From Methanococcoides sp. (lineage in GTDB: Archaea > Halobacteriota > Methanosarcinia > Methanosarcinales > Methanosarcinaceae), in assembly GCA_021108275.1 (NCBI GenBank), contig JAIORD010000051.1, positions 1 to 35,902 on the forward strand: a DNA stretch of 35,902 nt, read 5' to 3'. Below are positions 1 through 34,644 of the stretch, in pieces (the first letter of the stretch is position 1; each line of letters begins with the position of its first letter). The notes below the pieces were generated by a model. It did no database searches and was not told where the DNA came from. It saw only the letters and a list, made by a program, of their open reading frames with translations. A program made the translations under genes and the position numbers.

Positions 1-255
1 TAGTAGGTACGTTACACCCACTACAACCTGATAGACCGCAGATCCATCCTTAGGCAACCGAGGTCTTTTGGCCAAAAAGCATTCCAGCATATTTGACCTA
101 TTCGGAATTATCTCCAGTTTCCCGGAGTTATGCCGAACCTAAGGGCAGGTTATCCACGTGTTACTGAGCAGTCCGCCATGTTCACGAAGAACATTTGACT
201 CGCATGGCTTAGTCGAACACCGATAGCAGTAACCTCTGGCAGGATCAACCAGAGT
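1..255 (-). rRNA. 16S ribosomal RNA, 5' end (partial)
   Basis: Reading the minus strand from about position 255 gives the archaeal SSU rRNA start (TCTGGTTGATCCTGCCAGAG followed by the conserved block ending TGCTATCGGTGTTCGACTAAG). About 255 nt of the 5' domain are present and the gene runs off the left edge. The mature 5' end is placed by similarity at 253-256. The body contains the usual early 16S helices. The sequence type fits Methanosarcinaceae, but genus assignment from memory is only suggestive. The rRNA operon is transcribed leftward from the promoter region at about 500-800. Confidence 0.97.
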
Positions 256-6080: not shown

Positions 6081-7610
6081 ATGACCCAAAAAAGATTGAA
6101 AATATTGATCATTGATAATGAAAATGATAATGTTGAAATGCTGGAAGCCATACTCAGCTCCGACTATGAAGTTATAAAAGCATATTCCGGTTACAAAGGT
6201 CTTGAGATCGCAATTGCTGAAAGTCCTGATATAATCATACTTGACATTATGATGCCGGACATTACAGGTCATGAGCTATGCAGGACATTGAAGAAAGATG
6301 AACGCACAAAGCTCATACCTATCATCATGCTGACATCACTGGCAGAAAAGGAAGAGAAAATAAAAAGCCTTGAAGAAGGTGCAGACGATTTTCTCAACAA
6401 ACCTGTCAGTCATATGGAAATATTAAGCCGTGTGCAATCCCTGTTAAAAATAAAACACTTACAGGAAAACATAATCCAAGAAAGGAACCAGGCATATAAA
6501 TATCTCGATGCAGCAGGCACTATCATTGTTATAATCAACACGGACACGGAAATAGTATTCGCAAATCAGAAGACCTGTGATATCTTTGGTTGGGAGAAAA
6601 AGGATATTCGCGGTAAAAGCTGGATAGATTTTATTCCGGAAAACGGACGTGAAAGCCGAAAACAGGACTTGCACAACATCTTGAGCGGTAAAGCCGAACC
6701 GCCTGAATATTACGAACGTTTAATAGTAACTAAAAATGCGGATGGCACGTTTTCCGAACGCATAATCCTCTGGCATGATGTGATATTAAAAGATAGTGAA
6801 GGCAACATCACAGGGATAATTCGTTCAGGGGAAGACACGACTGAAAGAAAAAATATTGAAGAAGAACTTTCAAAGGCTAACGAAAAGCTCCAGATCTCCC
6901 ACAAGTTGAAAGATGAATTCCTGGCAAACATCAACCATGAACTAAGGACACCATTGATATCAATAAAAGGTTTCAGTGACCTGCTTTACAATGAAAGACT
7001 GGGGGACCTGAACGAGCATCAAAAAAAGACAATGGAATCGGTGGTCCGAAATTCAGAACGCCTGCAACATCTCATAGAATCACTTTTCTATGTAAGTGAA
7101 ATGCAGAACGAGACGATAAAATACACATTCAGTCTTATTAATATCAAAAAAATACTTGAAATTATCAAAAAAGACATGTCCCCCCAGATCGATCAGAAGG
7201 GGATCGAGGTCACTACCGACATTTCCGACTCGCTCTCACCGGTACACGGGAACGCAAAATACATAGAAAGTGTATTGATGCATCTGCTTGGCAATGCTAT
7301 CAAATATACTTCATCAGGAAGGAAGATCTCCATCCTTGCCTCAGAAGAGAACGGGGACATACACATCGTCATAAAAGATACAGGTAAAGGCATTCCAAAA
7401 GAGATGCTTACCCATATATTCAGTGAAGCTCCTGAAGAAGAAACTGAATGTGATATCTGTTACTGTAGTTAGGATTATGGACTGATCATCTGCAAAAAGA
7501 TAATCGAAGCGCATAGAGGCACCATATGGCTAAACAGTGAAGTAGACCAAGGCACCGAGATCCATGTCAAATTGCCTGTATTCGTTGATAAAGGCCCCAT
7601 CTGCAAATAA
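6081..7610 (+). CDS. Receiver-PAS-histidine kinase with in-frame TAG
   Basis: A hybrid sensor kinase. Residues 1-120 are a receiver domain (Asp55 phosphoacceptor in ILDIMMPD, NKP lysine), about 130-255 a PAS/PAC domain, about 270-340 a HisKA dimerisation domain with His286 in NHELRTPL, and about 370-508 the HATPase domain (N-box GNAIKYTSSG, G1 DTGKGIP). TAG at 7470-7472 would end the protein at 463 aa inside the ATP lid. The same frame continues for 45 codons to TAA at 7608-7610 and encodes the rest of a normal HATPase domain (GLIICKKIIEAHRG, then WLNSEVDQGTEIHVKLP). Read through, it is 509 aa with residue 464 as pyrrolysine, the amber meaning known in methylotrophic Methanosarcinaceae. The alternative is a nonsense-truncated kinase. 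The G2 box is degenerate (YGLII for GLGLA). Confidence 0.85.
7470..7472 (+). other. In-frame TAG, candidate pyrrolysine codon (kinase codon 464)
   Basis: This amber codon falls between the G1 and G2 regions of the HATPase domain. Reading frame and homology continue without a shift on both sides (upstream TECDICYCS, downstream DYGLIICKK). Confidence 0.6.
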
Positions 7611-13078: not shown

Positions 13079-13093
13079 GATCCTTTAAGGATC
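13079..13093 (-). terminator. Hairpin terminator at the dnaG stop
   Basis: On the minus strand a GATCC...GGATC inverted repeat (13079-13093) overlaps the dnaG TGA and is followed by a pyrimidine-rich, T-rich run (revcomp of 13035-13076). It fits an intrinsic-type archaeal terminator. Confidence 0.55.
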
Positions 13094-14669
13094 AAAAATC
13101 AGATGCTGTCAGAACATTGACACTTGCAGGGCTTTTTGCAATATTGCCCTTTTTCACACCAATAAGGTTCTCAATACCCTTGTCAGATGCGATATCCAGT
13201 ATACGCTGAGTTACGACACCATCGAAAATAACGCTCTTGATCCCTTCATCGTTCTCTTTTAGTGTGTTGACCAGATCACGAACTGCAGTTTCCTCAATGA
13301 TCTTGTCCTTTGAATCTAAAAGTCTTGCTCCAAGAGTTCCATTCAGTGCATCAGAGTGTGGTTTGAACCTAAGTGCCTGTGGAGAGAGCACTGCGGGCTT
13401 TGCTTCTTTTGGCGCCCTTGTTTCCCTGGGGGCTCTTGTTTCTCTAGTTGCTGTTGTTTCCCTGGGTGCCCTTGTTGCTCTAGATGCCGTTGTTTCTCTA
13501 GTTGCTGTTGTCTCCCTTGGTACCCTTGTTGCCCTAGATGCCGTTGTTTCTCTAGTTGCTGTTGTTTCCCTGGGTGCCCTTGTTGCTCTAGATGCCGTTG
13601 TTTCTCTAGTTGCTGTTGTTTCCCTTGGTACCCTTGTTGCCCTAGATGCCGTTGTTTCCCTAGGCGCCCTCGTTGCTCTTGATACCCTCGGTTTCTCTTC
13701 GGACATGGAAGGTTTGCTAACAACTTTGGTAGCAACAGGTGCAGAGACCTCACTCGTTGGCCTTTCCTTGCGCTTTGGAATGCGTGTGACCCTGCCACCC
13801 TTAGCAGGTTTTTCTATCTGTTCAGGTTTAACATCTGTTTTGATAGAGTAATTTTCAAGAGCCTGCTCTACAGGGATCTTCTGCCTCAGTGAGCGTACGA
13901 TCTCCCTCTGAACAAGGTCTTCGACACTCTTTCCGTCAGGAGCACGTGCAATGTAATCAATGTCTGCAACCTGTAGAAGCTCCTTTATGATGAGCTTTCC
14001 ACCACGATCACCGTCTGTGAATGCAGTTACGGTCTTCTTCTTTGTGAGCTCTGCAACCTCAGGTGGTACATTGGTGCCGCCTACACAGATAGTGTTCTTA
14101 ATACCATATCTCAAAAGGTTCAGCACATCTGCCCTACCTTCAACAACAACGATCGCATCAGACTCAACCACATTAGGGCCACATGGGATCTTGTTCTTCC
14201 CATAGTACTCCATCTCTTCAATACGTACTGACTGACGAACTTCGTCTGCGATCTCCTGGGATTCCGGAAGGTTCTCATCGAACATGTCGGTAAGAATGTA
14301 CTTTGCACGCTCAATGATATGTTTCCTTTTGGTTGCACGAACATCCTCGATCTGTGTGATCTCGATCTTTGCCGTACATGGACCTACTCTGTCAATAGTC
14401 TCAAGGGATGCTGCAAGAATAGATGTCTCAACCCTATCGAGGCTAGATGGAATAAAGATATTACCTTTGGTCTTACCACCCTTTGCACCTACTGCAACCT
14501 CTATCCTTCCGATACGGCCGGTCTTTTGAAGATCGCGCAGGTCCAGATCTGAACCGAGCAGACCTTCTGTCTGGCCAAAAATAGCTCCTACAATATCAGG
14601 ACGTTCAATTATTCCGTCAGCGCTGATCTTTGAATGAATGATATATTTAGTGGTGTCTGTATTTTGCAT
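13092..14669 (-). CDS. dnaG: Archaeal DnaG primase-like protein with repeat-expanded linker
   Basis: The 525-aa protein has the archaeal DnaG N-terminal domain ([26 protein letters not shown] split over residues 7-32), a TOPRIM domain ([37 protein letters not shown]) and a conserved C-terminal domain (about 430-525). Between them is an Arg/Thr/Glu-rich linker of about 90 residues made of 18-aa units (TTASRATR[A/V]PRETTATRE). Archaeal DnaG is usually shorter (about 400-450 aa). It makes short RNA primers in vitro and associates with the exosome, so an Arg-rich linker could bind RNA; that is inference. ATG at 14667-14669 is preceded by AAGGAG on the minus strand. Confidence 0.92.
13441..13656. 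repeat. Four 54-bp tandem repeats (two 108-bp units) inside dnaG
   Basis: Copies lie at 13441-13494, 13495-13548, 13549-13602 and 13603-13656. Copies 1 and 3 share the GGTGCC (Ala) variant, copies 2 and 4 the GGTACC (Val) variant, so the duplicating unit is 108 bp. I see one base difference between the two dimers (C at about 13511). Degenerate copies continue on both sides (about 13417-13440 and 13657-13690). In frame, it adds 18 aa per copy. Confidence 0.9.
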
Positions 14670-23684: not shown

Positions 23685-24461
23685 ATGCAAGTGAAGGACA
23701 TAATGGTAGAACCGATATCTATTGATAAAGCAGACACGATATCCCATGCGCTTGATGTTATGGAAAAGAAGGATACACGCCGCCTTTTGGTAAAACATGA
23801 CGATAATCTTATCGGCATACTTACAATGAGAGGTATTACTAAAGAACTTGGTACACGAAAGAAAGGGGCTAAACCTGCATCTTCACTCCATGTAGCAACT
23901 GCTGTTTCAGATAAATTCGTAAAGGTCCTTCCTGATATGGATGTGGACGACGCACTTATACTGATGGCAAATGACCGCGGTATTATAATTGTAAGCGAGA
24001 ATGAGAAGATCCTCGGTTGGGTTACACCAAATGAAGTGCTGAACAATAGTCAGATCGATGGTTATGCTGCTGAGATAATGAACAAAGAACCTATAACCGT
24101 ACATCCAGGAGACAGAGTCAGCCATATCAGACACATAATCCTTGATGAAGATATTGGAAGGTTCCCTGTTATTGAGGATGGCAAACTTATAGGTATTGTC
24201 ACTGAGCAGGATATCGCTAAGTCAATGCGTGCTTTCAGGGATATTGTTTCTGGAAATCAGCAAGATTCACGCATTAAGAACCTCATTGTCGAAGATATTA
24301 TGAAAAGAGGTGTCAAGACCGTGAAATCCAACACTCTGATGTCGGATGTTACAGCGATGATGCTCAAGGAAAAGATCGGTGGTTTGCCGGTAATGAACCT
24401 TGAAGGAGATATGGTAGGTTTCATTACAAGAAGAAACATTATTAGTGCGTTTGCACAGTGA
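23685..24461 (+). CDS. Four-CBS-domain protein, last of the array
   Basis: The protein is 258 aa with an ATG preceded by AAAGAGGTGAG (23668-23678). Four CBS motifs are visible ([13 protein letters not shown]... GILTMRGIT; a degenerate second one ending [19 protein letters not shown]... [19 protein letters not shown]... GFITRRNII). Its stop is 4 nt before the ATG of the RNA ligase gene, so ligase translation is probably coupled to it. That makes the ligase the best candidate partner of the CBS array. Confidence 0.9.
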
Positions 24462-24465
24462 AAGA

Positions 24466-25635
24466 ATGAGACCTGATGATGCTGATCGTATCATATTGGA
24501 TGTGAGGGCAGCTGCAGATTATCTGGACCTGCCCGTATCCAAACTCCAGAAATTATTACAAAAGCGTGAGCTTTTGCAGCTCTGGGGAGAACATCAGCAT
24601 CTTTTTCGTTTTGATACATCTATTTCTCATATTGACAGCGGGTCAGTTCTGTAGCAAAAGAACGGCTGTTTTGAACTTATAAGAGGATTTCCAAAGATAC
24701 AGCGAGCCATGCTGTTAAAACCTGCTATAGAAGCTCACTTTTTTGATGTCAAGACAGTATGTGTCGAAGAGAAGATGAACGGTTTTAATGTGCGTATCGT
24801 GACATTTGACGGGAAGATCATTGCCATAACCCGCGGAGGTTACGTCTGCCCTTATTCCACTGAAAGGGCACAGAAGTTTTTGGATATTGACTTTTTTGAA
24901 GAACATCCAGAACTTGTGCTCCACGGCGAGATGGTAGGTCCTGATAATCCTTATATCCCAAAGAAGATCTACAATGTCGAGTCCCTTGAACTTTTTGTTT
25001 TCGATATAAGACATAAGCATACTGGCATTCCCCTTCCGCTTCATGAGCGAAGGCAGCTTGCAGAGGAATATGGATTCACACAGGTCAGGCTCTTTGGCGA
25101 ATTTCCAAAGGAAGAAGCTCCCTTAAGGATAAGTGAGATCATCAGGGAACTTGGGAAGATAGAACACGAAGGCGTTGTTATCAAAGATCCCATGATGGAT
25201 ATAGCACCTTTAAAATATACCTGTTCGCAAAGCAATTGTGCAGACCTGAGACATGCTTTCAAGTTCTACAATGATGTCGGCAGGGATTATCTGTTCTCCA
25301 GGGTGGTGCGCGAAGGTTTTCAGGCAGTTGAATGGGAAGAGACATCTGATGATATAGACAAGCGCTGCCTGCAACTTGGGAGAAGTATACTTTACCCCAT
25401 GATAGATTCGATCAACGATATAGGAAATGGCTCCCTTGTAGCCGATGAAGTTCAGATGAGGGTATCAAGCCTTGAGACCGTTTCAAAGTTCAAGGAATAT
25501 TTAAGACGGCAAGGCATGGCAACCATTTTCAGTGAGCCTGAGGTGGTAGGTGATGAATTTATTGTCAAGATCAGGAAGCTGAGCAAGAGTACCAATGATA
25601 AGACGCTTTCTATGTGGAAGGGAGAAACATGGTAA
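24466..25635 (+). CDS. ATP-dependent RNA ligase (archaeal Rnl3 type) with in-frame TAG
   Basis: The whole frame from ATG 24466 to TAA 25633-25635 is 390 codons; codon 63 is TAG (24652-24654). Reading TAG through gives 389 aa, the normal length of Rnl3 ligases, which join RNA 5'-phosphate and 3'-OH ends or circularise RNA. The N-terminal part (1-62) matches the family's N-domain. After the TAG come ELIRGFPKIQRAM, motif I EEKMNG (Lys103 as the AMP-accepting lysine), RGGYVCPYSTE, motif III HGEMVGP, FDIRHK, motif IV HEGVVIKDP, motif V LKYTC and the C-terminal dimerisation region. Starting at the ATG at 24709 would lose the N-domain and GFPKI block. Pyrrolysine at residue 63 is the simplest reading. 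A GTG at 24445 could be an alternative start. Coupled to the CBS gene. Confidence 0.9.
24652..24654 (+). other. In-frame TAG, candidate pyrrolysine codon (RNA ligase codon 63)
   Basis: The frame and family similarity are continuous on both sides (upstream ISHIDSGSVL, downstream QKNGCFELIRGFPKIQ). A weak stem CAAAA/TTTTG (24655-24673) follows directly. No frame change is needed. Confidence 0.75.
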
Positions 25636-25692: not shown

Positions 25693-26730
25693 ATGACAAA
25701 AATAACTATCATCGGAAGCGAAAAAAGCGGAAAGACAACCCTTGCTGCAAAATTAGGGAAGAAGGGAACCGTAGCAGATTTTACAATGTACGATTTTGCC
25801 AAGAGCGGAAAAGTTCTGACAACTATCGATGCAACAGGATATCCTACAGCGATCAAGCCGATGATGGCTGGTTTAAACCTTTCGGACATTGCAGTTCTGT
25901 GCATACCTCCTGAAGGACTTGATCTTTATTCAGGAGAGTGTATCATTGCACTCGACCTTCTGGGCTATAAGCACGGCATCATAGTTCTGACAAAATCAGA
26001 TACAAGCTATCCTTTTGCCATTGATGAACTGAAGGAGAAGGTAACGAAATTAACAACAGGAACAGCTCTTGAGAACTGGGAATATATTTCTGTTTCCACA
26101 ACATCCTTTGAGGGAATGGAAGAGCTCAAGGAAATGATATTCGATCTTGGCGAGGTTGTCGATAAAGAGCTTGAAGAATTGAACGAGCTTCCACCACGTG
26201 TGGTCGTCGACCAGACCTTCAATGTTACCGGTATCGGATGTGTTGTTCTTGGTGTCGTGGACCAGGGAACCATCAACGCAAAGGATAAACTGATAGCTTT
26301 CCCAAGTGATAAGCAGATAGAGATCCGTTCCATTCAGCTGCATGATGTAGATGCAAAGAGTGCACCAGCAGGTGCAAGAGTTGGACTTGCACTCAAGAAC
26401 GTGCAATCAAAGGATGTTGAGAGAGGTTTTGTACTCTCACAAAAGGAAGAAGTTACAGAGGACCTTACACTCAAATGTCATTTCACACCCTTCTCAAAAG
26501 GCTTTGCAGTAGGAGATGTCCCTCATATCTTCGTAGGTTTGCAGTCAGCCCCAATGCGAATTGAAAAGATCCTCGTCAACGGAGAGGAAGTTGAGAGGAC
26601 TGCAACAGATGCTGAATGTGTGCTTACTCTCTCAGGATCGAGATTACTGGCTTACAATGGATCTGACAGGTTCATAATCTGCAATCTGGATGATAAACAG
26701 AGATTTGTGGGGTATGGCTACATAGCTTAA
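25693..26730 (+). CDS. SelB-like elongation-factor GTPase relative
   Basis: The 345-aa protein has the layout of an EF-Tu/SelB relative: G domain (1-180), domain 2 (about 190-265, from QTFNVTGIGCVVLG) and domain 3. The P-loop GSEKSGKTT and the G4-like TKSD are kept. The G3 region reads DATGYPT in place of DTPGH, so the catalytic histidine is missing and GTP hydrolysis may be weak or lost. SelB-like proteins of this type are known across archaea lacking selenocysteine; their role is not established. It follows the TAG-containing RNA ligase by 57 nt, with a box A-like TATATCACAATAAG between. A role in recoding is speculative. Confidence 0.82.
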   Translation: MTKITIIGSEKSGKTTLAAKLGKKGTVADFTMYDFAKSGKVLTTIDATGYPTAIKPMMAGLNLSDIAVLCIPPEGLDLYSGECIIALDLLGYKHGIIVLTKSDTSYPFAIDELKEKVTKLTTGTALENWEYISVSTTSFEGMEELKEMIFDLGEVVDKELEELNELPPRVVVDQTFNVTGIGCVVLGVVDQGTINAKDKLIAFPSDKQIEIRSIQLHDVDAKSAPAGARVGLALKNVQSKDVERGFVLSQKEEVTEDLTLKCHFTPFSKGFAVGDVPHIFVGLQSAPMRIEKILVNGEEVERTATDAECVLTLSGSRLLAYNGSDRFIICNLDDKQRFVGYGYIA

Positions 26731-33399: not shown

Positions 33400-34644
33400 T
33401 CAGATACCTGTGTTGAAACGCAATACCGCTACAACGCCGCCAAAAGCTTTCAAAAGCTGTGAACCTTCCTCGAAATCAGTGGATATGAACTCCACCCTTG
33501 TGCCCATCTGGTCACACATCTCAGACAGTTGATCAACGACATCCACCTTTTCAGTGATCTCAAGATAAGAACCACATTTCGGACAGTTACCGGTAGCAGG
33601 ACTACTGTCCCCGGGCTTGAACTCGCGGCTGGTCTTCTTCTCATAATCACAAGAAGTGCACTTGACAGTTTCCCTTACAGCTCTGAGGTCCTCGGATATC
33701 AGCAATATGTCCACGGCACCTATTATGAGGTTCTCACGGACATTATCCTCACCATAGGTCGCCTTGCCGGAATCTGATACCAATTCCCTGAAGAACTGTT
33801 GCATCAGCTTCTTCTCGACCATGAGATCAAGGTCTTCAAGTCTCTCGCCCGCAGCATTCACGAGTTCGGGAAGACCAGATTCATCGGTGTATGCAACATC
33901 GAAAAGACCAAGGACCTTCTTCTCGATCTCGTGGTGGAAGAAATTACCTGATTCGAACTCTTCCTTTGTGGGTGACGGACCACCTATAAGCACTCCTTCG
34001 AAATCTTTCTGATCTACTGCAAGGAAGACCTCACTTGCAGCATCTCCAATACGTTTATAGAAATCATGTATGGCAATAAGTCGCAATTGCTGGAATCTGT
34101 GAGCACTCTGACCACCCTTTCTCTGTTTCCCGGGTACAGTGGAAGTAAGTTTACGGAATGCTTCTATCTGTTTACCCGTGAGAAGACCAACCGTAGCTTC
34201 ACGCCTGTCCAATACAAGCAGACCATAGGTCTTTGCTTCCTTTAACATCTCTTCCAATGGAGTAAGGAAAAAAGATGAATCGCAGTGATATCTGTAAGTG
34301 ATGATAGGCTGTGGTGGCTCAACAATGGTGGTCTCCATATTGGTCTTGTTCGCACCAACATCTACCGCACCAGTAAAATATACAATCCCATTCTCCGGAA
34401 CTGTACCATACCTGAGCCTTGACATAATAGAATCGATGGCTCCCTGTACATTAGTCTTGGTAAGCTTGGATTTGATATTGGAAGCCTGGCTATGTTCGTT
34501 CCTAAGCTGTGATACAACATCTGAGATCTGTTTATCAGGAGGTATGTACAGAGAAATAAGTTCGGTACCACGACCTTTTTTTCCCCTTAACGATTCCAGT
34601 TTCTTTTTAAACTCGTATTTCTGATGTGAAGATTGTTCAGCCAT
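33400..34644 (-). CDS. prf1: Archaeal peptide chain release factor aRF1
   Basis: aRF1 recognises stop codons and triggers peptide release. The 414-aa protein has the N-terminal stop-reading NIKS motif (residues 56-59), the YxCxxxF motif (Y119, C121, F125), the GGQ motif at 177-179, and a C-terminal minidomain with a zinc-type cysteine arrangement (CTSCDYE, CPKCGSYL). All stop-decoding motifs are intact, so sequence gives no sign that it is blind to UAG. That matters because the window appears to decode TAG. It lies directly upstream of argS. Confidence 0.95.
   Translation of the reverse strand: MAEQSSHQKYEFKKKLESLRGKKGRGTELISLYIPPDKQISDVVSQLRNEHSQASNIKSKLTKTNVQGAIDSIMSRLRYGTVPENGIVYFTGAVDVGANKTNMETTIVEPPQPIITYRYHCDSSFFLTPLEEMLKEAKTYGLLVLDRREATVGLLTGKQIEAFRKLTSTVPGKQRKGGQSAHRFQQLRLIAIHDFYKRIGDAASEVFLAVDQKDFEGVLIGGPSPTKEEFESGNFFHHEIEKKVLGLFDVAYTDESGLPELVNAAGERLEDLDLMVEKKLMQQFFRELVSDSGKATYGEDNVRENLIIGAVDILLISEDLRAVRETVKCTSCDYEKKTSREFKPGDSSPATGNCPKCGSYLEITEKVDVVDQLSEMCDQMGTRVEFISTDFEEGSQLLKAFGGVVAVLRFNTGI

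Follow-up and report, generated by a model that had tools for sequence, protein, structure and literature searches.

Organization of the RNA ligase locus

The window, i.e., the whole analyzed stretch of 35,902 nucleotides, represents contig C20 of a Methanococcoides sp. genome (2.67 Mb, 60 contigs, 99.4% complete), hereafter the host genome. An RNA ligase gene with an in-frame TAG, a candidate pyrrolysine (Pyl) codon, is located on its forward strand between a CBS-domain gene and a gene for a SelB-like GTPase. The features considered below are as follows.

6081-7610, forward strand, response regulator-PAS-histidine kinase, second TAG candidate; TAG at 7470-7472, read-through completes HATPase_c
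23685-24461, forward strand, CBS-domain gene (named by eye); ends 4 bases ahead of the ligase start
24466-25635, forward strand, RNA ligase gene, Rnl3/TIGR01209 type; 389 codons with TAG counted as a residue, TAA stop at 25633-25635
24466-24651, forward strand, N-terminal part before TAG, 62 codons; less constrained than the rest
24652-24654, forward strand, codon 63, an in-frame TAG predicted to encode pyrrolysine; shared by 9 of 11 genus genomes
24655-24708, forward strand, codons 64-81 with the GFPKI segment (codons 74-78, 24685-24699); untranslated under a restart at 24709
24709-24711, forward strand, first in-frame ATG past TAG, codon 82, rival restart site
24772-24774, forward strand, codon of K103 in EEKMNG; aligned to the EEKMNG lysine of the Methanothermobacter ligase 5d1o
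25693-26730, forward strand, EF-Tu/SelB-like GTPase, 57 bases past the ligase stop; selB model 136.7 bits, below the cut-off of 242.25
33400-34644, reverse strand, release factor aRF1; single match over the family cut-off in the host genome

The contig begins within an archaeal 16S rRNA gene (window 1-255, reverse strand; Rfam SSU_rRNA_archaea), and the assembly thus breaks at the rRNA operon. A primase-like protein, named by eye, is encoded at 13092-14669 on the reverse strand and contains a run of near-repeats mid-protein.

The TAG is the single in-frame stop of the frame 24466-25635, with 26 and 31 stops counted in the remaining two forward frames. The read-through protein of 389 residues, terminated by TAA, matched TIGR01209 with 382.5 bits (cut-off 136.9) over residues 20-389 and profile positions 5-373 of 375, in agreement with the preliminary description, which had proposed one ligase frame split only by this codon. 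The part from 24709 alone kept 344.7 bits, so the TIGR01209 model by itself makes no demand for the N-terminal part. The Pfam domains RNA_ligase and Lig_C were assigned to residues 97-252 and 263-387 (133.1 bits), respectively. Along the protein, TAG63 is followed by GFPKI at 74-78, ATG82, and the lysine K103 of the KMNG motif, and the coordinates agree with the earlier placement of a 62-codon N-terminal part and of a first later ATG located past GFPKI and ahead of the KMNG lysine. Residues G74, F75, P76, and K77 and the lysine K103 of EEKMNG are invariant in 12 aligned rows, and I78 is present in at least 90%. From the alignment with 5d1o and from K97 in the excerpt of PMC3514331, K103 is taken to be the nucleotidyl lysine equivalent to K97 of the literature. 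Judged from its sequence, 24466-25635 is one archaeal ATP-dependent RNA ligase with the TAG at codon 63 as its sole interruption.

With the known Rnl3 ligases (MthRnl, 5d1o; Pab1020, 2vug; Palaeococcus, 8uce; TIGR01209) the protein shares the RNA_ligase and Lig_C domains and the catalytic fold. The match to 5d1o reached 299 bits over ligase residues 22-386; in the phmmer alignment, 5d1o has a Tyr opposite residue 63, whereas here the codon is TAG. The AlphaFold model built with the 12 rows was fair (mean pLDDT 74.2, pTM 0.54) and matched the catalytic-domain fold over 220 aligned residues (model 79-307) with a Z score of 22.8 and rmsd of 2.1. Since the model is only fair and the structural matches shown begin at model residue 79 or later, nothing was drawn around residue 63 beyond a predicted strand at 61-65.

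Domains and position suggest that the downstream GTPase is aSelBL, for which the name "EF-Pyl" was formerly proposed. The order CBS gene, ligase (called DNA ligase there), and aSelBL is given for Methanosarcinales in the excerpt of PMC3037878. A link between aSelBL and Pyl was not adopted as the default, because according to the excerpts of PMC3037878 and PMC4329189 its distribution is unrelated to Pyl and it binds Cys-tRNA; the former EF-Pyl role is disfavored (PMC4329189). In Thermococcus, knockout of the ligase represses the circularization of C/D box sRNA (excerpt of PMC9014305). RtcB is also encoded in the host genome, where a second ligase of the Lig_C type was not found.

Codon 63 in the genus and family

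The ligase was found in all 11 Methanococcoides genomes compared, including M. alaskense (G001), sp. SMBSF15 (G008), M. seepicolus (G007), and M. vulcani (G010). Codon 63 is TAG in nine of them, CAG in M. alaskense, and TGC in G003, which answers the earlier question of what close relatives carry at this position; in the DNA of the named loci, CAG is present in L045 and TAG in L046, L047, and L048. No further in-frame stop occurs within codons 1-389 in any of the 11 rows. The conservation of TAG at one codon in nine of 11 genomes means that it is not a sequencing error. The genus is divided into two clades of five and six genomes with a protein identity of about 71% between them. Only 36% of the 4-fold degenerate sites in codons 64-389 are identical between the clades, which makes neutral survival of the TAG triplet unlikely.

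Outside the genus, the ligase was matched in 90 of 100 family genomes, 89 of them without a reported stop inside the match; in four of those 89 (G035, G047, G072, and G089) the match arrives in pieces. In the genome G073 (genus g12), the ligase at G073:C1:18288-19435 appears as two overlapping pieces in two frames with several stops, which suggests a broken gene. No match was obtained in 10 of the 111 family genomes, including all eight members of genera g6 and g7 (57-93% complete). A phage origin of the ligase was considered and dropped, as tblastn found nothing similar among 50,697 phage records.

The outgroup alignment comprised 39 of the 90 ligases, i.e., the 19 best-scoring and 20 picked further down the list. 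Site 63 is occupied there by Tyr (20), Val (7), Ile (6), Leu (4), Cys (1), and Asn (1), and TAG was found in none of these 39 ligases of other family genera. With the genus included, the aligned relatives carry Tyr, Val, Ile, Leu, Cys, Asn, or Gln. The 20 Tyr codons are TAT or TAC. Because Tyr is the commonest residue at the outgroup site and is also present in 5d1o, Pyl most likely took the place of Tyr, at a position where other residues are also accepted.

In a tree of 30 ligases, in which the TAG column was kept as X in the TAG rows, three changes of TAG state were counted, and the 5-95% range in 200 bootstrap trees was likewise three. Since M. alaskense is the first branch of its clade (91/77 support), a history of one gain and two losses is as short as one of two gains and one loss; a single gain of TAG was therefore not taken as settled history. 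The CAG of M. alaskense, one step from TAG, favors a loss of TAG in this species and does not prove it.

TAG usage in the host genome

Termination codons were counted in a genome sample of 435,902 bases, consisting of the window and a further 400 kb (about 16% of the genome), using nonoverlapping, mechanically defined ORFs of at least 150 amino acids. Only seven of the 295 ORFs end in TAG, compared to 164 in TGA and 124 in TAA, while TAG accounts for 3,912 of the 19,956 stop trinucleotides in all frames (19.6%). Six of the seven TAG-ended ORFs run on in frame for at least 45 codons (45, 86, 88, 111, 121, and 509); the remaining one has a 20-codon extension and may have a real stop. Among the 288 ORFs ended by TAA or TGA, which served as a control, 51 run on for at least 45 codons to the next TAA or TGA. 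Run-on length proves little for one gene, but six of seven stands out. The host genome mostly treats TAG as sense, and the ligase is one of several TAG-bearing genes.

Pfam domains cross the TAG in MtbB, SfsA (L075:11273-12055), and two histidine kinases, the one in the window and L060:10946-12880; of the six long extensions, the Pfam scan covered all but C1 38393-40279 and the C2 kinase. In the window, one of 30 ORFs taken as likely genes ends in TAG under the standard code, the histidine kinase 6081-7472, whose frame extends 45 codons past the TAG. Its HATPase_c domain scored 41.7 bits without and 72.7 bits with read-through. Among the best matches in the 11 genus genomes, this TAG is present in the host only and the other ten are free of stops, which indicates that it is young.

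Three histidine kinases from two species, L071:15288-17543 (G000:C2), L060:10946-12880 (G000:C1), and L100 (G008:C2), share what appears to be one TAG position, following "LKFTPE.G.I" in the ATPase domain, and a 73% identical copy without a stop is present in G006; together they possibly form a TAG-bearing kinase family. The SfsA homolog (L075:11273-12055, G000:C3) has its in-frame TAG at codon 120, within the Pfam SfsA domain. A kinase paralog (L095, G000:C5:51116-52612) and its kin in G007, G008, G003, G005, and G002 contain one in-frame TGA in five genomes, including the host, and TAA in G002; this may be a stop near the match end or a split gene.

Several further frames were set aside. In L065:15042-17066 (TAG at 195), the domain lies wholly beyond the TAG, and the frame was left uncounted. 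The TAG falls between two domains in the HyuA-HyuB frame (L065:6730-10344; 675/698), where it may separate two genes as a genuine stop, and between domains in a TnpB-like frame (L061). By eye, many of the long frames with a TAG seemed to be antisense frames or extensions at the 5' end. A coding-potential scan for further Pyl genes was too weak, recovering three sites and missing the ligase, and was replaced by the open-frame counts and Pfam.

An archaeal code in which all TAG codons are read as Pyl was reportedly described by Kivenson et al. in Science in 2025. The host genome sample is alike in that TAG is nearly absent as a terminator, and the ligase is probably covered in principle by this proposal.

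Constraint on either side of the TAG

Uncorrected pN/pS pooled over 55 pairs was 0.43 for codons 2-62, the loosest segment, 0.142 for codons 64-81, and 0.19 for codons 82-389. Purifying selection thus acts on both sides of the TAG.

These values bear on the alternative that the TAG is a true stop and that a 308-residue catalytic fragment restarts at the ATG at 24709, perhaps together with a separate 62-residue peptide. Such a fragment retains K103 and Lig_C along with its high TIGR01209 score, its start codon ATG82 is present in all 11 genus genomes, and aRF1 is encoded in the host genome. Codons 64-81, however, would be left untranslated after a restart at ATG82, yet they are constrained and include the near-invariant GFPKI segment, which argues against stop and restart. 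M82 does not mark a start, since it is also frequent in relatives without TAG. An in-frame ATG at codon 73, just ahead of GFPKI, occurs in three of the nine TAG genomes, so that a restart upstream of GFPKI would be possible in those three only. The ligase frame is complete in both congeners with a sense codon, and TAG is seldom a real stop in the sampled genome. Termination with restart is therefore considered very unlikely.

Pyl machinery and decoding of UAG

The pyl genes that the preliminary description had looked to are all present in the host genome. On contig C1, tRNA-Pyl with the anticodon CTA is followed by PylS (728 bits), PylB, PylC, and PylD and then by MtbA, with PylS, PylB, PylC, PylD, and MtbA each above the curated cut-off. 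PylS is encoded in all 11 genus genomes and in 99 of the 111 family genomes. Together with the conservation in the genus, these genes support the proposed reading of the TAG as a pyrrolysine codon.

Read-through by a near-cognate or other suppressor tRNA (e.g., Gln, Tyr, or Lys) instead of Pyl-tRNA would fit the CAG (Gln) codon of M. alaskense and the Tyr in 20 of the 39 aligned relatives outside the genus. Against it stands the dedicated tRNA with the CTA anticodon adjoining pylSBCD; a scan of 400 kb, covering no more than a fifth of the host genome, recovered 10 tRNAs, all with other anticodons, and the window contains no tRNA at all. Insertion of another amino acid at residue 63 appears highly improbable. 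A decaying ligase gene or an assembly error, to which one in-frame stop in a protein that the family may be able to lack (10 of 111 genomes gave no match) might point, is scarcely credible, as it is already largely refuted by the same TAG in nine genome assemblies, three of them named records (L046-L048), by the absence of a second stop or frameshift across the genus, and by pN/pS well below 1.

The NIKS and YxCxxxF motifs of the host aRF1 look ordinary. With aRF1 present and its motifs ordinary, termination at UAG should compete with read-through. The excerpt of PMC9499178 describes a likely competition between Pyl-tRNA(Pyl) and the release factor for UAG, in which no mRNA signal is needed. 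Folding energies 3' of the TAG were within 2 SD of codon shuffles in all 11 genomes (z -1.69 to 0.95; single-sequence folds, judged by eye), and a PYLIS-like hairpin after the TAG receives no support from these folds, which are no stronger than those of the shuffles.

Discussion

The comparative evidence supports the identity of residue 63 as Pyl. Very probably, the full-length 389-residue ligase is made by reading UAG63 with Pyl-tRNA(Pyl), and residue 63 would be a pyrrolysine without a chemical role. The two of 11 genus genomes that do without TAG count against this reading, as do the loose constraint on the N-terminal part and the high TIGR01209 score of the catalytic part by itself. The ribosome would make one 389-residue ligase. 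Its TAG presumably goes back to a TAC or TAT codon for Tyr that was changed in the Methanococcoides ancestor or close to it; efficient decoding by Pyl-tRNA would have made the TAG tolerable, and M. alaskense (CAG) and one other species (TGC) would have lost it later. The ligation chemistry is expected to be independent of Pyl: as seven residues occur at site 63 in the aligned relatives, a dependence on Pyl would be one of chain completion. If Pyl-tRNA were lacking, the chain would end at residue 62, ahead of the catalytic lysine, and little ligase would be formed. We infer that RNA end joining may depend on the supply of Pyl, as the preliminary description had suggested.

The methyltransferases MtmB, MtbB, and MttB likewise have UAG at a fixed codon and rely on the same pyl system, and a TAG-bearing MtbB is encoded in the host genome. 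The Pyl of these enzymes lies in the active site (excerpt of PMC8211752), whereas site 63 of the ligase holds seven other residues in relatives. The closer parallel is Thg1 of Methanosarcina acetivorans, likewise an RNA-processing enzyme outside the methyltransferases that acquired an in-frame amber codon. As far as the literature excerpts go, the Thg1 amber codon occurs in M. acetivorans only, in contrast to the ligase TAG, which is present in nine of 11 species of the genus. The ligase is most likely a Pyl protein outside the methyltransferases that is conserved in the genus, and such proteins are already known. In the excerpt of a 2021 review, the known Pyl proteins beyond the methylamine methyltransferases are limited to Thg1 and some transposases (PMC8211752), and older scans gave further Pyl candidates such as TetR-like regulators (excerpt of PMC1914089). 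No paper on a Pyl RNA ligase was among the matches listed, going by titles and the beginnings of abstracts, with supplements and most subscription papers outside the search. The word "ligase" is absent from the main texts of PMC1242214, PMC3639795, and PMC1914089, "RNA ligase" is absent from PMC11363022 and PMC9499178, and in PMC5378194 it denotes the T4 reagent.

It is conceivable, though unlikely, that the Pyl codon is kept by selection as a supply switch, with the ligase and the coupled SelB-like GTPase completed only when enough Pyl-tRNA is available. The effect on the GTPase, 57 bases downstream, would then be routed through translational coupling. In Acetohalobium, the carbon source switches UAG between Pyl and stop (excerpt of PMC8211752), which makes a supply effect possible for the ligase. 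If such a switch existed, RNA repair or sRNA circularization would be tied to the methylotrophic state, i.e., growth on methylamines, throughout the genus.

For annotation, reading UAG63 as Pyl matters in that gene calling with table 11 opens the ligase frame only from 24709 and loses the first 81 residues; standard callers cut such genes. The best part of the finding is the natural series of Tyr, Pyl, and Gln or Cys at one site of an RNA enzyme. With a Pyl codon that has lasted through the radiation of the genus, two relatives with a sense codon, and Tyr in half of the aligned outgroup, the site would be a clean natural experiment for asking if a noncatalytic Pyl is neutral, a cost, or a means of regulation.
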